NCBI RefSeq assembly: GCF_026226615.1
Contig: NZ_JAJAPB010000004.1
Location: 1-64,000 of the forward strand
DNA from: Geovibrio ferrireducens
GTDB lineage: Bacteria > Chrysiogenota > Deferribacteres > Deferribacterales > Geovibrionaceae
Direction: 5' to 3'
DNA: 64,000 bases
Position 1 is the stretch's first letter. Each line of letters begins with the position of its first letter. Below, piece by piece: positions 9,396 through 62,593 of the stretch. The notes under the pieces are model-generated. The model saw only the letters and a program-made list of their open reading frames with translations. It had not been told where the DNA came from and made no database searches. Made by a program: the position numbers and the translations under genes.

Positions 9396-9475
9396 ATTTC
9401 CGTCCATGGAAATCAGAAATTCACCAACAAAACTCCCGAACCAACGGGCAGCAGCGTTGACGATGCAGGCATATC
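9396..9475 (-). repeat. Echo copy of the methyltransferase 3' end
   Basis: Eighty bases match 9561-9640 with five differences. On the minus strand both encode the same last 20 residues (DMPASSTLLPVGSGVLLVNF) and stop; all five substitutions, in four codons, are synonymous (GGC/GGA, GTA/GTT, CTT/TTG, TCA/TCG). The copy includes the short palindrome that follows the stop. A second direct repeat of 24 bases links 9378-9401 and 9474-9497. Confidence 0.9.
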
Positions 9476-9483
9476 TGATTTAC

Positions 9484-9578
9484 TGATTAAAATTTCCTTC
9501 AGTGGAAATTTTAATACACGCTCGCGCCGTGGTAAACACGGCTTCGCTGCGCACGGCGGGATTTCCGTCCATGGAAAT
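9484..9578 (+). repeat. Modular hairpin element, copy C (downstream of methyltransferase gene)
   Basis: Hairpin 1 has 12-bp arms (ATTAAAATTTCC/GGAAATTTTAAT) around TTCAGT; this copy lacks the TCC-type inner loop and looks like a variant of hairpin 3. It is followed by the conserved linker, hairpin 2 (CCGTG/CACGG around GTAAA), the core at about 9541-9559 and hairpin 3 (ATTTCC/GGAAAT around GTCCAT). It is antisense to the neighbouring gene and immediately 3' of it, as in the other copies. Confidence 0.8.
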
Positions 9579-10204
9579 CAGAAATTCACCAAAAGTACGC
9601 CCGAACCAACGGGCAGCAGCGTTGATGATGCAGGCATATCATTTTTTATTTCCTCGATGAAGCTGAGGAGTTCGTCGCGGCCTTGGCGGTATTTTCGGGG
9701 GACTTCCGCTGTTTCCATTGCGAGCATGCCGAAGAGGAGCACGTCATCGAAAATGACGAGTCCGCCTTTGTTGACTCTGGTTTTAACAGTCTGCCACATC
9801 AGCGGGTAGATCCGTTTTACGGAGTCGATGAACACCATATCGTAGTTATCGTTTGTCCGGTTCAGGTATGTAAATGCTGATTCGTTTATGAATTCCACAT
9901 TTTCCAGTTCGATGCACAGGGTTTTCGCCACAGCAATTCGGTTTGGGTTATGGTCTATGCCGGTTATTTTCGCCTTCGGGCAGCCCTGTTTGATATAGGT
10001 TGTGGATGTGCCTATTCCGCTGCCTATTTCGAGTACGGAGGCGGGTTTCAGCACAGATGCCAGCAGGCGGAGCAGCTCCCCTGTTTCCGGTTCCACGGAA
10101 GGGACATCGTGTTTTTTGGCATAGTCGTGCATGTCTTCATTTTTCGCCCTTACGGTGGAGCGTATGTATTCGAGAATACCGGGGATTAGTATATCATTTC
10201 TCAT
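9578..10204 (-). CDS. O-methyltransferase family 3 protein
   Basis: A 208-aa class I SAM-dependent methyltransferase of the family that includes caffeoyl-CoA O-methyltransferase-like proteins. The SAM-binding motif VLEIGSGIGTSTTY (about 60-73) and the metal/substrate acidic motif MVFIDSVK (about 120) are visible. The substrate is unknown. It directly follows the motE-like gene without a gap and so is the last gene of the flagellar operon, though nothing else ties it to motility. Its last 20 codons are echoed downstream at 9396-9475 beyond a hairpin element. Confidence 0.85.
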   Translation of the reverse strand: MRNDILIPGILEYIRSTVRAKNEDMHDYAKKHDVPSVEPETGELLRLLASVLKPASVLEIGSGIGTSTTYIKQGCPKAKITGIDHNPNRIAVAKTLCIELENVEFINESAFTYLNRTNDNYDMVFIDSVKRIYPLMWQTVKTRVNKGGLVIFDDVLLFGMLAMETAEVPRKYRQGRDELLSFIEEIKNDMPASSTLLPVGSGVLLVNF

Positions 10205-30171: not shown

Positions 30172-31611
30172 ATGAGCGATAAGAACGAAAGCAGAAAAGT
30201 TCTCATAGTTGATGACGATGACAACATGCGCGAGGCACTCAGGGAAACAGTCAGGCGTATGGGGCTTTCAGTGGAAACCGCAGAAAACGGGCGTGAAGGA
30301 TTCGAAAAGGCCTCCTCACGCCCCTATGACCTGATCATAAGCGACATGCGTATGCCTGAGATTGACGGACTCGCCATGTTCAACATGATGCGCTCCTCCG
30401 GCATTGAAACGCCCACATGCTTCATAACCGCATTCGGAACCGTTGCAAACGCAGTGGAGGCACTCAAACTCGGTGCTTCGGACTATATTCTCAAGCCGTT
30501 CCCGCCGGAAGTTATTGAAGAGCTCATAAGACGCACATTTGAGATAGAGAGCCTCACCAAAGGGGGCAAACGTAAGAAGAACAAGGCTGTTTTCCGCAGT
30601 GCTTTCATGGCGCGTCTGTTCGCGCTGGCCAAGGATGTGGCTGACAGTGAGGCCACTGTGCTTATCACCGGTGAATCAGGCACGGGCAAAGAGGTATTAG
30701 CCCGTTATATTCACGACAACAGTTCAAGGGCCGACGGCCCCTTTGTGGCGGTGAACTGCGCCGCCATACCCGAAAACCTCATAGAAAGCGAACTCTTCGG
30801 ATTTGAAAAGGGAGCCTTCACCGGGGCAATCAACCGCAAGGCTGGCAAATTTGAACTGGCTGACGGCGGAACCATCCTGCTGGATGAGATAGGCGAGGTT
30901 CCGATTCATTTACAGGCCAAACTGCTCAGGGTTTTGCAGGAGCGGGAGGTGGAACGCCTCGGCTCCGTGCGCCCGGAAAAGATAAATGTCCGCATACTGG
31001 CCACCACTAACAGAGAGCTAAAAAAAGAGGTGGCAGCGGGCAATTTCAGGGAAGACCTGTTCTACAGGCTGAACGTTATCGCAATCGAGCTTCCGCCCCT
31101 TCGTGAACGCAGGGAGGATGTGCGGGAACTGGCAGAATTCTTCATGACAAAATACGCCGAAATAAACCGAAAGGGCTCATGCTCTCTGGGTGAAAAGGCG
31201 CTTCAGGCACTCATAGATTACGAGTGGCCGGGAAATGTCCGCGAACTGGAGCACACCATTGAGCGTGCGGTTGTTCTCTGCCGTGATAAGGTGATAAGCG
31301 AGCGCGATCTCTTCCTCCACGGCATAACCATAAAGCAGTTTCTTCTGGAGAGCGATTTCCAGAAGGATGTCCCCGTTCAGCAGGCGGAAGTATGCGTTGA
31401 AAATGCCTCCGGCGCTGAGGTATGCAGACCTGCCCCGGCTGTTCCCTCTGTGGGTGTAACCATTGCAGAGATGGAGAGGGAGCTTATACTGAAAACTCTC
31501 GATGAGGTCGGCGGAAACCGCACCAAGGCGGCGGATCTTCTGGGCATAACTGTACGCACACTGCGCAACAAACTCAATGAATACAGGGATTCGGGGCATT
31601 ACAGCGACTGA
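30172..31611 (+). CDS. FlrC/FleR-like sigma54-dependent response regulator
   Basis: A 479-aa NtrC-family activator: receiver domain with Asp 58 (IISDMRMPEIDG), AAA+ domain with Walker A GESGTGKE at 167-174, the sigma54-contact loop GAFTGA at 214-219, and a Fis-type DNA-binding helix-turn-helix at the C-terminus (TKAADLLGITVRTLRNKLNEY). With its kinase it most likely switches on middle flagellar genes; the sigma54-type promoter before flgB is a plausible target. Complete and of normal length. Confidence 0.93.
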   Translation: MSDKNESRKVLIVDDDDNMREALRETVRRMGLSVETAENGREGFEKASSRPYDLIISDMRMPEIDGLAMFNMMRSSGIETPTCFITAFGTVANAVEALKLGASDYILKPFPPEVIEELIRRTFEIESLTKGGKRKKNKAVFRSAFMARLFALAKDVADSEATVLITGESGTGKEVLARYIHDNSSRADGPFVAVNCAAIPENLIESELFGFEKGAFTGAINRKAGKFELADGGTILLDEIGEVPIHLQAKLLRVLQEREVERLGSVRPEKINVRILATTNRELKKEVAAGNFREDLFYRLNVIAIELPPLRERREDVRELAEFFMTKYAEINRKGSCSLGEKALQALIDYEWPGNVRELEHTIERAVVLCRDKVISERDLFLHGITIKQFLLESDFQKDVPVQQAEVCVENASGAEVCRPAPAVPSVGVTIAEMERELILKTLDEVGGNRTKAADLLGITVRTLRNKLNEYRDSGHYSD

Positions 31612-31618
31612 TATAACA

Positions 31619-31677
31619 GGGTAAATCAGTACATCCTGTCTGATTTACCCACACGCTCGCGCCGTGACGAAGCTCAC
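31619..31677 (+). repeat. Modular hairpin element, partial copy E
   Basis: Hairpin 1 (31619-31650) has 11-bp arms GGGTAAATCAG/CTGATTTACCC, a bulged T, inner ACA/TGT and loop TCC. The conserved linker follows at 31651-31663, then a short hairpin 2 (GTGA/TCAC, 31664-31677). The core and hairpin 3 are replaced by the tandem array that begins at 31679. It is antisense to the AEC transporter gene on its right. Confidence 0.8.
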
Positions 31678-31678
31678 T

Positions 31679-32291
31679 GTCATTGCGAACTTTAGTGAAG
31701 CAATCTCTAAGTATTAACAACACCATCACACCCCCGCAAAGCGGCAAGGAGACAAACACAGCTTAAGACTGCCGCGTCGCGCTGCTCCTCGCAGTGACGC
31801 AAACTACTGCCATTGCGAACTTTAGTGAAGCAATCTCTAAGTATTAACAGCACCCTCATACCCCCGCAAAGCGGCAAGAAGACAAACACAACTTAAGACT
31901 GCCGCGTCGCGCTGCTCCTCGCAGTGACGCAAACTACTGTCATTGCGAACTTTAGTGAAGCAATCTCTGAATATTAAAGCCACATCCTCATACCCCCGCA
32001 AAGCGGAAGGCAAAGCGGCAAGGAGACAATCACAGCTTGAGACTGCCGCATCGCGCTGCTCCCCGCCGTGACGAAGCTCACTGTCATTGCGAACATCAGT
32101 GAAGCAATCTCTAAGTATTAATACCTCATCCTCATAATCTTCGCAAAGCGGCAAGGAGACAAACACAGCTTGAGACTGCCGTGTCGTGCGACTCCCCGCA
32201 GTGACGAAGCTCACTGTCATTGCGAACGTCAGTGAAGCAATCTCTAAGTATTAATACCGCACCCTCATACCCCCGCAAAGCGGAAGGCAAA
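31679..32291 (+). repeat. Tandem array of about 130-bp units
   Basis: Five units start with G(T/C)CATTGCGAAC at 31679, 31809, 31939, 32083 and 32216 (periods 130, 130, 144, 133). Each contains GTGAAGCAATCTCT, then CCCCCGCAAAGCGG, then an inverted GC-rich tail with GCAGTGACG. The CCCCCGCAAAGCGG part is an echo of the 3' end of the AEC gene: 31986-32014 equals 32263-32291 over 29 bases, including the stop codon. The last unit therefore runs into the coding end of that gene. No gene is seen in 31612-32264. Confidence 0.9.
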
Positions 32292-33209
32292 ACCCAGCCA
32301 AAGCGGCATGGAGATGAGCGCCGCTGCCGTGGTGAAAACTATCACAGCGGAAGTCACCCTTGATTCACCCATATAATACTTCACCACGGCGAGGTTCATC
32401 ATCCCCGCAGGCATGGCGGACTGAGCTGCGAGTATAATCTTGAGCCCCCTGTCGTTCACGGCGTATTTTGCTGTAAGCAGGAACAGAAAAGCCATTCCGA
32501 CCATACGCAGCAGGATGCCCGCCACGCCTATCTTCACTGTTCCGCCGAGGCTTGAGCCGCGAAGCCCCTCACCCAAAGCCAGCCCGCTTATGAACAGACC
32601 CAATGGCATAGTGAGAAATGATATGACATCAAGCGCACTCCCCGCAGCACCGCTGAACGGTTCGGGTGAGAAAACAGAATTAAACGCCACAGACAGAAAC
32701 AGCGCATAGAACGGCGTACTCGCGGCAAGCCTTATAATTCCCGCTCTGTAAGAGCCGGTGAGAACGACGATCCCCGCTGTCCAGTATATGAAGTCTATGC
32801 CGAAGTTAAAAAGCAGAAGCTGCCCCGCCGCGTCCCTGCCGAACAGATGCGCAACAACAGGCAGCGTAAAAAAGCCGTAGTTGTAAACCCCTATTGTAAA
32901 AGCGAAAGCCCGTCTCTCTTTCGACTCCCTCAGCCCTATGAACGGAGCCAGAAAATATGCCGCGGCAAAGCCGGAAGCAACGGAGAGCATTCCCCACAGC
33001 GGAAGGAAGACGGAGGAGGTTATATCCCTGAGATTTTCATTGCCTGTTATGAAGTTAACCACAAGGCACGGGAAAAAGAAGTGTATGAACAGGCGGAAAA
33101 GGAATTTATCAGCCTGAGGGGGCAGAGCGAAACCGCGCTTTAATACGAACCCCCCGGCGAATACGCCGAAATACGGCATGACTGTTTTAAAAATGTCTAT
33201 GTAGTTCAA
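32265..33209 (-). CDS. AEC (auxin efflux carrier) family transporter
   Basis: A 314-aa integral membrane protein with about ten hydrophobic segments in two halves, typical of the AEC family. The family includes malate/malonate and auxin carriers; the substrate here is unknown. It starts 4 bases after the DUF523 gene and forms a three-gene unit with it and the cysteine-rich protein. Its last codons (FRFAGV) lie within the last unit of the repeat array, and the 3' end is echoed in the upstream units. Confidence 0.85.
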   Translation of the reverse strand: MNYIDIFKTVMPYFGVFAGGFVLKRGFALPPQADKFLFRLFIHFFFPCLVVNFITGNENLRDITSSVFLPLWGMLSVASGFAAAYFLAPFIGLRESKERRAFAFTIGVYNYGFFTLPVVAHLFGRDAAGQLLLFNFGIDFIYWTAGIVVLTGSYRAGIIRLAASTPFYALFLSVAFNSVFSPEPFSGAAGSALDVISFLTMPLGLFISGLALGEGLRGSSLGGTVKIGVAGILLRMVGMAFLFLLTAKYAVNDRGLKIILAAQSAMPAGMMNLAVVKYYMGESRVTSAVIVFTTAAALISMPLWLGFAFRFAGV

Positions 33210-50338: not shown

Positions 50339-51424
50339 GTGTTTCAGATTAAAGACGAACGGCTGCAAATTCTGATAATCGCCTCTGTCCTCATCACAAT
50401 GGGGCTGATATTCGTGTTCTCTGCGGGCTCCATACAGGCGCTCAGGCTGGAGAAAAACGAGCTCTACTTCTTCAACAAGCAGCTTTTAGCGGTCTTCATA
50501 GGTCTGGGGCTCATGTACGGCGCATACAGCATACCGCTGAAAACATGGCGCAGGTTTGTGCCGGCGCTCTATTTTCTGACACTGATACTGCTGATTTCCG
50601 TGTTCTTTTTCCCGAAGCTCAACGGTTCGCACAGGTGGATCCTTCTTCCCGGATTCAGCTTACAGCCTTCGGAGCTGGCTAAGTTCACCTGCATACTTTA
50701 CCTTGCCCATTATCTGGACAAGAAAGAAGGCAGGCTCAACGACTTTACCACAGGTTTCCTCCCCGCTTCCATAATGCTGGGGATAATCGGCGCACTCATA
50801 CTGAGCGAACCGGACTACGGAACAACACTGCTTATAATCTGCGTGTCATTCACGCTGTTTCTGATAGGCGGAGCCCACATGCGCCACATAATAGGCGTTA
50901 TAGGGTTCATCGCTCCTATTATAACCGCAGGGCTTCTCATGGGTTACAGGAGAGGCAGAATAATGAGCTTCCTTGACCCGTGGGAAGATCGCTACGGAAC
51001 AGGCTATCAGCTTGTGCAGTCCCTCACTGCCGTGGGCAGCGGCGGCATATTCGGCAAGGGAGTGGGCAACTCCTCCCAGAAGCTTTACTTCCTCCCGGAG
51101 GCGCATACGGACTTCATATACGCCATTATCGCAGAGGAAACAGGTCTTGTAGGTTCGCTGGCTGTGCTTGTGATAGTCACCGTGTTTTTTATAATAAGCG
51201 TTAAAGTGGCTCTTAAGCATAAGGAGCTTTTCTATAAACTGCTCACATTCGGGCTCGCTTTCAGCCTGTTTGTTCAGGCTCTGCTTCATATATCAGTGGT
51301 TACCGGTCTCCTCCCCACAAAGGGAATAGGCCTCCCGCTGGTCAGCTACGGCGGCTCAAACATGATGATCTCCCTGCTTATGGTGGGCGTACTCCTGCGC
51401 AGCGCAGAGGAGGCGGGCTCATGA
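50339..51424 (+). CDS. ftsW: Septal peptidoglycan polymerase FtsW
   Basis: SEDS-family glycosyltransferase, 361 aa with about ten membrane segments, partner of FtsI. The signature region GLPLVSYGGSNMMISLLMVGVL is at the end and LDPWEDRYGTGYQLVQSL in the middle. It starts at a GTG. Its last codons lie inside a 19-base sequence repeated before murG (see 51410-51559). Confidence 0.97.
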   Translation: MFQIKDERLQILIIASVLITMGLIFVFSAGSIQALRLEKNELYFFNKQLLAVFIGLGLMYGAYSIPLKTWRRFVPALYFLTLILLISVFFFPKLNGSHRWILLPGFSLQPSELAKFTCILYLAHYLDKKEGRLNDFTTGFLPASIMLGIIGALILSEPDYGTTLLIICVSFTLFLIGGAHMRHIIGVIGFIAPIITAGLLMGYRRGRIMSFLDPWEDRYGTGYQLVQSLTAVGSGGIFGKGVGNSSQKLYFLPEAHTDFIYAIIAEETGLVGSLAVLVIVTVFFIISVKVALKHKELFYKLLTFGLAFSLFVQALLHISVVTGLLPTKGIGLPLVSYGGSNMMISLLMVGVLLRSAEEAGS

Positions 51425-51559
51425 GTGAAGAAAAACTCCACGGAGGGAGATTCGCCGTGCGCAGCGAAGGTCAGCCTGCTGACCGCGAGCGTGTACAGTT
51501 TTCGGACAGGACGTGCCGAAAACTGTTATCAGGACAGACTGAGGCGGGCTCATGAGTGA
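51410..51559 (-). repeat. Modular hairpin element, copy F, inserted at the ftsW-murG junction with target duplication
   Basis: The same 19 bases, covering the end of ftsW and an ATGA overlap, occur at 51410-51428 and 51541-51559. Between them, on the minus strand, lies the element: hairpin 1 (51495-51526, 11-bp arms ACAGTTTTCGG/CCGAAAACTGT, bulged base, inner ACG/TGT, loop TCC), the linker (51484-51494), hairpin 2 (51470-51483, GTCAG/CTGAC), core (51453-51469) and a short hairpin 3 (51436-51449). Before insertion ftsW and murG would have overlapped by ATGA. The element is antisense to ftsW, as at the other loci. Confidence 0.85.
51421..51555 (+). other. Bridging 44-codon ORF across element F
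   Basis: An ATG overlapping the ftsW stop (ATGA) opens a 44-codon frame without interruption through the hairpin element; its TGA overlaps the murG ATG (again ATGA). Its start, MSEEK, echoes the murG start MSEK. It would let ribosomes pass from ftsW to murG by termination-reinitiation. Whether the peptide matters is unknown; the coupling idea is inference. Confidence 0.45.
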
Positions 51560-52589
51560 GAAAAATGTGAGGTTAATCATAGCGGGCGGCGGTACGGGCG
51601 GACACCTTTATCCCGGCATAGCCGTTGCGGATTATCTTAAAAATAAAGATGCGGAAGTGTTTTTCATGGTCTCCGACAGGGGGATTGAAAGAAAAATACT
51701 CACCGAAAAGGGCTACAGCTTTTACGAACAGCCGCAGACTCCCCTCAAGGGAATAAGCATGGCGGGCAGAGTGCGCTCCGTCATTCTCCTTGTCAGAGAA
51801 GTCTACGGAATGCTTAAAAAAATCAAAAAGACCGACACAGTGCTCCTCACAGGGGGTTTTGCCGCAGCAGCACCCGCCATAGCCGCAGTGCTTAAGGGTG
51901 CAAGGCTTTACCTGCATGAGCAGAACAGTGTGATGGGTCTTACCAACAGAATATTCGCCGTATTCAGCAAAAAGGTTTTCCTCTCATTTGAGGGAACGCT
52001 GAAGGCGAAAGGGAACACAGTTCACGCAGGCAACCCCGTAAGGGCTGAGTTTGCCTCCTGCACACCGAAGGCTGAGCCGACCAAGCGGATTCTGGTTCTC
52101 GGCGGCAGCCAGGGGAGCAGGTTTCTCAACAGGCTCATGGCAAGATCGGCAAAAGCACTGGCAGATGCCGGATGGAGCATAACCCATCAGGCAGGTGCGA
52201 AGCTTTATGACGAAGCACTTGAGGACTACCGCAATGCAGGTGCAGAGGCTGACGTGCGGAGCTACATAGAAAACGTGGCTGATGAATACGAAAAGGCGGA
52301 TGTGGTCATAGCCCGCGCAGGCTCAGGCACGGTTTTTGAAACCATGTACGCACGCCGCCCGGCTGTATTAGTTCCCTTTGCGCAGGCAGCAGACGAACAC
52401 CAGCTTTACAATGCCCTCTTCGCGGAAAAACTCGGCATAGCAAAGGTTATGACAGAGAGCGGAGCAAACCCGGAAAGGCTCAGAGAACTGATTGAGTGGT
52501 CACAGAAACAGGAAGTAAAAGACAGGCTGGCGGGTATAAAATATCTGAACAGCCCTGAAATAATAGCAAGAGGTATGGAACTTGACTGA
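51552..52589 (+). CDS. murG: UDP-GlcNAc transferase MurG
   Basis: Peripheral membrane glycosyltransferase that turns lipid I into lipid II. The 345 aa have the N-terminal AGGGTGGHLYPGIA, LHEQNSVMGLTNR and the nucleotide-binding ARAGSGTVFE with PFAQAADEHQLYNA. Normal length. The region before its ATG is duplicated from the ftsW end; the end overlaps murC by 8 bases. Confidence 0.97.
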   Translation: MSEKNVRLIIAGGGTGGHLYPGIAVADYLKNKDAEVFFMVSDRGIERKILTEKGYSFYEQPQTPLKGISMAGRVRSVILLVREVYGMLKKIKKTDTVLLTGGFAAAAPAIAAVLKGARLYLHEQNSVMGLTNRIFAVFSKKVFLSFEGTLKAKGNTVHAGNPVRAEFASCTPKAEPTKRILVLGGSQGSRFLNRLMARSAKALADAGWSITHQAGAKLYDEALEDYRNAGAEADVRSYIENVADEYEKADVVIARAGSGTVFETMYARRPAVLVPFAQAADEHQLYNALFAEKLGIAKVMTESGANPERLRELIEWSQKQEVKDRLAGIKYLNSPEIIARGMELD

Positions 52590-61414: not shown

Positions 61415-62593
61415 TTACAGTTTATTAGTATAAGCGCTCAGCGCCCACCACTGATTGCCGTGCGCACCCTGACGAATCTCAAGCACCTTCGTATGGTTGT
61501 AAGGTACCCCGATAACCACTCCGTTCGGAGCAAGCACACATCCGAACCATTTGCCCGAACCGCTGAAACTTCCTGTAAGCTTTGCGGTATTCACTAACGG
61601 ATCAATAACAAGCACAGAGCCGGCATCGTAAGGGACACAATATATCCTTCCATCCGGAGCAAGAACACCGCCGAAGTACTTTGCAGAGCCGCTAAAACTT
61701 CCGATAAACTCTGTAGTGCCATTTGTCGGATCAATCACAAGAATCTCTGAAGCAGAGCCCGGTACACAATATATCTTTCCGTTCGGAGCAAGAGCACATC
61801 CGTACCACTTTGAAGAACCGATGAAACTGCCGATAAGCTCGGCGGAGTTGTCTGTCGGGTCTATAACCAAAATTTGTGCTGAGTTCAGCGGTGCACAATA
61901 TATTCTCCCGTTCGGCGCTAAGGCTCCTCCGAACCACTTTGACCCGCCTACCGCAAAACTGCCGATGAGTTCCGTAGTGTTATCTGTAGGGTCAATGGTG
62001 AGTATCTGCGGGTAATCGTAAGGTACACAGTATATCTTCCCGTTCGGTGCAAGAACAGCACCGGCCCATTTTTTTGCACCTGTGAAACCCCCTATTAACA
62101 CTGTGGTGTTATCTGCGGGGTCTATAACAAGTACAGAATCAGCATTGAATGGAGGGCAATATATCTTTCCGTTCGGTGCAAGCACTCCGCCCCTCCACTT
62201 TGCAGAACCGCTGAAACTGCCAATAAGCTCTGTAGTGTTACCTGAGGAGTCTATAACAAGTACAGAATTGGCATTGTAAGGAGGGCAATATATCTTTCCG
62301 TTCGGTGCAAGCACACCGCCTCCCCATTTTCCTGTTCCGCTCAGATTCCCGAACAGCAGTCCGCCGCCCAATGCTCCCGCAGGATCTGTTGATGCGTAAC
62401 CTTCAAGGGGATTGGAGTACGGCGTGTTCCCTGCCGCCGCAACACCATCCAGATTAACCTTCAGTCTGCCCGACTGACTGTCAAAAACAAGATTCAGCAC
62501 CTCATCCTCTGTTTTATATTTTGCCTTAAGACGCTGATCAGCAGAATCAAAAACGCTGTTCAGTATCTCAGCGGATGTTTTTCTCTTCCCCAT
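61415..62593 (-). CDS. Phage tail protein with seven propeller repeats
   Basis: A 392-aa protein. The first 50 residues resemble an adaptor repeated twice (ILNSVFD...RLKAKY, then LNLVFD...RLKVNL). Residues about 83-380 consist of seven 43-residue repeats, each with LAPNGKIYC (varied) then a VLVIDP-NTTELIGSF-GS-KW unit; seven repeats suggest a seven-bladed beta-propeller. The last 15 residues differ. In a phage tail this could bind a receptor. The DNA has matching 129-base repeats. It lies in a module with an endolysin. Confidence 0.75.
   Translation of the reverse strand: MGKRKTSAEILNSVFDSADQRLKAKYKTEDEVLNLVFDSQSGRLKVNLDGVAAAGNTPYSNPLEGYASTDPAGALGGGLLFGNLSGTGKWGGGVLAPNGKIYCPPYNANSVLVIDSSGNTTELIGSFSGSAKWRGGVLAPNGKIYCPPFNADSVLVIDPADNTTVLIGGFTGAKKWAGAVLAPNGKIYCVPYDYPQILTIDPTDNTTELIGSFAVGGSKWFGGALAPNGRIYCAPLNSAQILVIDPTDNSAELIGSFIGSSKWYGCALAPNGKIYCVPGSASEILVIDPTNGTTEFIGSFSGSAKYFGGVLAPDGRIYCVPYDAGSVLVIDPLVNTAKLTGSFSGSGKWFGCVLAPNGVVIGVPYNHTKVLEIRQGAHGNQWWALSAYTNKL

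Follow-up and report, generated by a model that had tools for sequence, protein, structure and literature searches.

Clusters of REP sequences that are reiterated in tandem together with their flanking DNA have been described before, and they are rare for the CGTC families according to the available portion of the source (PMC3733652). In the genome of Pseudomonas fluorescens SBW25 alone, 16 ordered REPIN clusters are reported as tandem repeats that include flanking sequences (Bertels and Rainey 2011, PMC3116915). The accessible part of that paper describes a cluster unit composed of flank, REPIN and flank, with a short unrepeated stretch between units, and clusters with up to four REPINs that extend over more than 700 bp (PMC3116915). 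A different source of stray gene ends is known from Vibrio cholerae, where homology-facilitated illegitimate recombination is proposed for displaced 3' ends and orphan immunity genes (PMC5361080).

The array presented here belongs to Geovibrio ferrireducens (RefSeq assembly GCF_026226615.1) and lies within the first 64,000 nucleotides of contig NZ_JAJAPB010000004.1, a stretch that was analyzed as a whole and is called the window below. The genome carrying the array is denoted G000, G001 is a genome of the same genus, and G002 and G005 are single-contig genomes, the latter from the same family; one genome per species was compared. Two hairpin elements are distinguished, i.e., A, a dispersed REP-like palindromic dimer of ~73 bp, and D, a three-hairpin element. 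The term 'echo' designates the copy of a gene's 3' end that lies beyond an intervening hairpin element. The array probably arose when the dispersed A dimer was amplified in tandem along with the DNA at its flank, here the last ~16 codons and the stop codon of a transporter gene.

A is short, palindromic, mostly extragenic and present in many copies per genome, like REP-type sequences in general. With the CGTC-tagged REP dimers, as outlined in the available text of PMC3733652, it shares the (C/T)GTC tags (either CGTC or TGTC), AT at the start of the stem (AT..AT stem ends), the 3-nt tails, the inverted dimeric arrangement and the lack of a transposase association. Its stem differs, however, measuring 5 bp with a large or interrupted loop, whereas the CGTC-tagged families have a stem of 8-9 bp and a loop of 4-5 nt. 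The names Denitrovibrio and Deferribacter are absent from that same portion of text. A search for the Y1-type transposase (RAYT; PF01797) gave no match in G000, and five out of 14 control genomes did match.

As in the SBW25 clusters, a REP doublet is repeated head to tail in tandem with its flank, and this flank is identical to the adjoining DNA at this locus only. Unlike in SBW25, where the accessible part of PMC3116915 describes near-identical units and RAYT transposases, the units here have diverged, a Y1 match is lacking and the flank is a coding 3' end. The T6SS loci of Vibrio cholerae are similar in that old gene 3' ends persist downstream of one that has been newly joined, but the excerpt of PMC5361080 deals with whole gene modules from other strains and not with a hairpin repeat that carries a gene's own end. 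As tandem REP-like clusters including flanking DNA have already been published, no special new process is needed to account for the array. Judged by titles, no published 'TCATTGCGAG' repeat or peptide thereof was found, nor any relevant work on Geovibrio repeats or on REP sequences in combination with template switching; a search for GAAGCAATCTC as a published palindromic repeat was equally negative.

Architecture of the Array

The array is situated between two convergent genes that are 653 bp apart, with the stop codon of the regulator gene at 31609-31611 and that of the transporter gene at 32265-32267. All features are listed in Table 1.

Table 1. Features of the array and its neighboring genes, with positions in the window.
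Feature	Position	Strand	Evidence
Sigma-54-dependent response regulator gene, left convergent neighbor	30172..31611	+	ORF; Pfam Response_reg, Sigma54_activat, HTH_8
AEC-type (Mem_trans) transporter gene, 314 aa, ending ..FAFRFAGV*	32265..33209	-	ORF; PF03547, E 2.8e-21
Truncated D: hairpin 1 (GGGTAAATCAG/CTGATTTACCC) and linker ACACGCTCGC, joined to half an A element	31619..31661	+	Sequence; D elements elsewhere
A copy 1, without left half	31664..31707	+	Sequence, unit alignment
Spacer 1, short form of the gene-end copy, decayed	31708..31764	-	Spacer and unit alignments
A copy 2	31765..31837	+	Sequence, unit alignment
Spacer 2, short form of the gene-end copy, decayed	31838..31894	-	Spacer and unit alignments
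A copy 3	31895..31967	+	Sequence, unit alignment
Spacer 3, longest gene-end copy; 29 bp exact including stop (31986-32014), further match into gene past 11-bp gap	31968..32038	-	Alignment score 58, maximum of 2000 shuffles 28
A copy 4	32039..32111	+	Sequence, unit alignment
Spacer 4, degenerate gene-end copy (AATCTTCGCAAAGCGG)	32112..32171	-	Sequence, spacer and unit alignments
A copy 5, directly behind transporter	32172..32244	+	Sequence, unit alignment
Source segment of spacers: transporter stop and last ~16 codons	32263..32314	-	Gene end in relatives, spacer alignment

The tandem array is real, as confirmed by Tandem Repeats Finder (31660-32283; period 130, 4.7 copies, score 791). Chance is excluded, since none of 100 dinucleotide shuffles of the window gives four matches to CCCCCGCAAAGCGG at two or fewer mismatches. 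The copies are spaced by 130, 144 and 133 bp, and five units of 129-144 bp can be aligned, the last one running into the gene. The initial annotation of this DNA had proposed five units of 130-144 bp that all carry the sequence encoding the end of the transporter. The five units are indeed present, but CCCCCGCAAAGCGG is exact in four of them (starting at 31731, 31861, 31993 and 32270), and unit 4 carries the changed form AATCTTCGCAAAGCGG in its place, at about 32136-32151. According to the unit alignment, unit 1 is a mosaic with a left linker that resembles units 4 and 5 and a center that resembles units 2 and 3.

The five head-to-tail A dimers follow the layout GAGACTGCCGCGTCGC..GCTCCTCGCAGTGACG-linker-GTCATTGCGAAC..GTGAAGCAATCTC and are separated by spacers of 57, 57, 71 and 60 bp. 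At the left edge, the order GGGTAAATCAG-TACATCCTGT-CTGATTTACCC-ACACGCTCGC is found (about 31619-31661; DNA fold z = -5.6). Hence the array does begin with hairpin 1 and linker of an element, as had been claimed, but this element is single, truncated and from another family than the repeated one. In the same way, a construction from a hairpin element and a gene 3' end is correct with respect to the transporter as the origin of the gene end, but the amplified unit is the GTCATTGCGAAC..GAAGCAATCTC dimer instead of the three-hairpin element.

Two other identities were considered and rejected. A 127-aa ORF on the minus strand (31837-32220) has no Pfam match and corresponds to the repeat read through rather than to a real protein. 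A known RNA family was ruled out by an Rfam search across the window, which returned one tRNA only at the gathering score and no model matching the array.

G000 is a draft genome and many of its contigs terminate at elements of this kind, which could raise the suspicion of an assembly artefact. Such an artefact is very unlikely to explain the array, as the five units are distinct, bear private differences and are embedded in a 301-kb contig, while analogous arrays occur in the single-contig genomes G002 and G005. The contig ends themselves lie in many cases within ~220 bp of A or D elements (e.g., C1, C4, C5, C6, C11, C19, C22 and C26), and the breaks in the assembly are probably caused by element arrays.

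Origin of the Spacers

At the orthologous site of G001, the TAA stop codon of the regulator gene and the stop codon of the transporter gene converge at a distance of 4 bp and nothing is inserted. A is without a match in G001 at an E-value of 0.01; D elements are present. In G002, the unit query finds 43 matches, and the two neighbors are located far apart (regulator ortholog at 725396-726832, transporter at 2560211-2561149). As these genes are not adjacent, the near-empty site is available from one relative only. The regulator ortholog of G002 is directly followed by a D array (L112, G002:C1 about 724960-725371) at the point where synteny with the window breaks, and downstream of the G002 transporter neither A nor D occurs in the stretch read.

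The transporter also ends in ..FAFRFAGV* in G002, where it is free of the array, and in ..FAFGLAGV* in G001. Against G000, the unit query yields 78 matches, mostly A halves at dispersed loci. These dispersed copies match the A halves of the query (1-63 and 94-141), whereas the gene-derived core (64-93) is matched exclusively within the array. The 15-mer ACCCCCGCAAAGCGG has five matches in G000 when up to one mismatch is allowed, four of which are exact and all within the array, and one of which has a single mismatch (C5:74687); at the same threshold, it has none in G001 and none in G002. Because the gene end is conserved without the array, the 15-mer is exact only here and the other A copies lack the spacer, the transporter is the source of the spacer. 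The array thus copied the gene end and not the reverse.

Flanking ORFs do obtain their stop codon from the repeat in some REP families (PMC3733652, available portion), and in an analogous scenario the spacer would belong to the repeat, with the transporter merely reading into it and the gene-end match being secondary. We rejected this scenario as hardly credible: array-free relatives have kept the gene end, and the spacer core is present at no other A locus. Nor were units with the gene-end part found throughout the genome next to unrelated genes, the outcome that the initial annotation had named as fatal to its own interpretation.

The alignment scores of the four spacers against the gene end are 27, 58, 41 and 39, compared to maxima of 25, 28, 27 and 31, respectively, among 2000 mononucleotide shuffles. 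The previously noted exact copy of 29 bp including the stop codon is confirmed in spacer 3, where 31986-32014 is identical to 32263-32291. Beyond a gap of 11 bp that is flanked by CAAA, the match into the gene is renewed (TCTCC.TGCCGCTTTG; 15/16 in the best-showing spacer), and the three short spacers are compatible with an additional loss of 12 bp between GCAAAGCGG repeats. This history of an 11-bp and a 12-bp deletion is the best but not the sole reading, as the aligner favors an alternative path through the gene end in two of the four spacers. Where A meets the gene copy, there is no clean microhomology join, and some ten bases (AAGCTGTGTT) lack a secure assignment.

Gene-End Echoes across the Genus

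A scan for the core motif of D gives 142 occurrences in G000 and 307 in G002, compared to zero for a reversed-pattern control. In a first set of loci, taken from G000 and G002 and including the studied array, locus-specific direct repeats are present at 34 out of 129 element loci and in only one out of 68 element-free chunks of 1.6 kb (32 of these chunks originate from the window). This sole control chunk is the neighborhood of window positions 62031-62341, a repeat with a period of 129 bp and 2.4 copies that looks like a repetitive coding region. In a second set, comprising loci of G000, G002 and G001 but leaving the studied array out, copies were sought within 700 bp downstream, and the last codons and stop of the adjacent ORF occur again at 30 out of 170 element loci (34 pairs) versus 0 out of 376 element-free ORF ends. 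Since part of the loci was chosen for closely spaced elements, the counts given here do not represent unbiased frequencies. The echo is a real and recurrent phenomenon in this genus.

Hairpin 1 of D displays a conserved loop (of the ACATCCTGT or CATCCATGG type) on self-complementary stems that differ by locus (L114-L143 and L146-L205), and at some D loci in the same ranges the duplicated target also includes one arm of hairpin 3. At window positions 51410-51565, D lies between two genes that overlap by ATGA, and a 26-bp duplication carries the start of the downstream gene, which resembles MurG.

Formation of the Array

The anatomy of the array, its origin from the gene, the near-empty site in a relative and the recurrence of echoes in the genus are observed, and from here on the order of steps and the DNA mechanism are inferred. 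The ancestral genes would have been convergent and almost gapless, as they are in G001, until a three-hairpin element and an A dimer arrived between them. A tandem duplication with one breakpoint in the gene end and the other at the outer edge of A would then have produced the order gene-A-gene end-A. The duplicated stretch most likely comprised A and ~50 bp of the gene end, and the palindrome was most likely where slippage or a template switch caused this first duplication. The repeated units may subsequently have undergone unequal exchange or slippage, giving rise to five units of mixed composition. The copies, having no role in a reading frame, would have drifted and suffered deletions between short direct repeats, first of 11 bp and later of 12 bp. 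The array can be considered an old, dead case, because its copies are frame-shifted (by deletions of 11 and 12 bp, as best aligned) and changed. The earlier suggestion of an echo process that was repeated or amplified in place is retained insofar as the amplification occurred in place and echoes recur in the genus, but it needs no special process and has to accommodate copies that are decayed. In the spacers of seven other A arrays (L100, L104-L109), no gene end was seen, so gene capture appears unusual for A arrays. Three of these loci (L104, L105 and L106, all in G005) are A-like tandem arrays with a period of 95-102 bp and spacers of ~28 bp that were not seen to be gene-derived.

The main rival to slippage or template switching is an insertion with long target duplication, whereby A or D would be mobile, insertion would duplicate 30-90 bp of the target, and recombination between the duplicates would generate the array. 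In favor of such a mechanism, the gene end at L042, L033, L157 and L205 is followed by D, a few bases and the gene-end copy, immediately after which no second D was seen. Moreover, the orientation of D relative to the echoed gene is the same at 25 of the 30 echo loci, opposite at three, and the D core is unrecognized at two. Nevertheless, the repeated segment takes in part or all of D at L119, L130, L147, L167 and L173, as predicted by tandem duplication, the duplication lengths vary widely, and G000 lacks a match to the Y1 transposase family (PF01797). We therefore consider the insertion mechanism unlikely and prefer tandem duplication by slippage or template switching.

This preferred explanation requires no function of the array. 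Given that it sits between convergent stop codons and consists of palindromic units, the array may alternatively have been kept for a function, as a terminator or insulator between the convergent genes or for the protection of mRNA 3' ends. A different A-head variant of G000 even folds better than shuffles (z -3.4), but the array's own A halves (z -0.5 and 0.4) and the whole dimer (z -0.5) do not. In addition, the units have diverged and one is truncated, G001 does without the array, and the single tRNA is the only Rfam match in the window, all of which makes retention for a function quite improbable.

Synonymous Differences between Genes and Their Copies

The studied array differs from most echoes of the three-hairpin element in that its copies have decayed. 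When BLAST defines the ends, 21 synonymous and 2 non-synonymous codon differences are counted in 18 pairs from 16 loci. For these 18 pairs, the expectation of ~39% synonymous differences under free drift corresponds to a P of about 3e-7, and a very generous expectation of 62% to a P of 0.002. A stricter count gives 29 synonymous and 8 non-synonymous differences (P 2e-6, or 0.03 under the generous expectation), whereby four of the latter 8 stem from one doubtful row (L201) and the fixed exclusion rules were chosen after a cruder count had been seen. That cruder count (48 synonymous, 27 non-synonymous) is superseded, as many of its rows were ORFs running through the element or had overextended ends.

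Comparison of the species illustrates the behavior of individual copies. At window positions 9396-9640, D separates a gene end from its 80-bp copy, and the same arrangement exists in G001 and G002. Within each of the three species, the amino acids are identical and gene and copy differ by synonymous changes only. The echoed gene is presumably methyltransferase-like. When this locus is compared to its G002 counterpart L206, a short stretch looks swapped, with the gene copy of G000 resembling the distal copy of G002 and vice versa. At the L205 locus, at least two copies are found behind the gene in G002 and one in G000, and G001 has neither element nor copy. The copy at the L119 locus is present only in G000, with an apparent D remnant in G002 and nothing in G001, and the copy at L147 is likewise restricted to G000. 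The predominance of synonymous differences and the species comparison together suggest that copies are homogenized or exchanged, or else refreshed by recombination with element-free alleles. A limited search of open papers found no published account in which gene-end copies differ mostly by synonymous changes.

Implications

In the array, a non-coding hairpin repeat drags the end of a coding gene into tandem amplification, and the near-empty site of a relative makes this case a clean one. The occurrence of gene-end copies next to hairpin elements is systematic in the genus, and no Y1 transposase was found in the tested genome, G000. The synonymous pattern between genes and copies is a better lead than the array itself, and how gene-end copies stay nearly free of amino-acid changes thereby becomes a testable question. 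One tentative possibility is that hairpin elements turn gene 3' ends into turnover arrays, in which live copies occasionally serve as the real gene end through unit loss or exchange or through recombination with element-free alleles; the studied array would then be an older, dead example. If true, this would amount to a conveyor of interchangeable gene ends in this genus.
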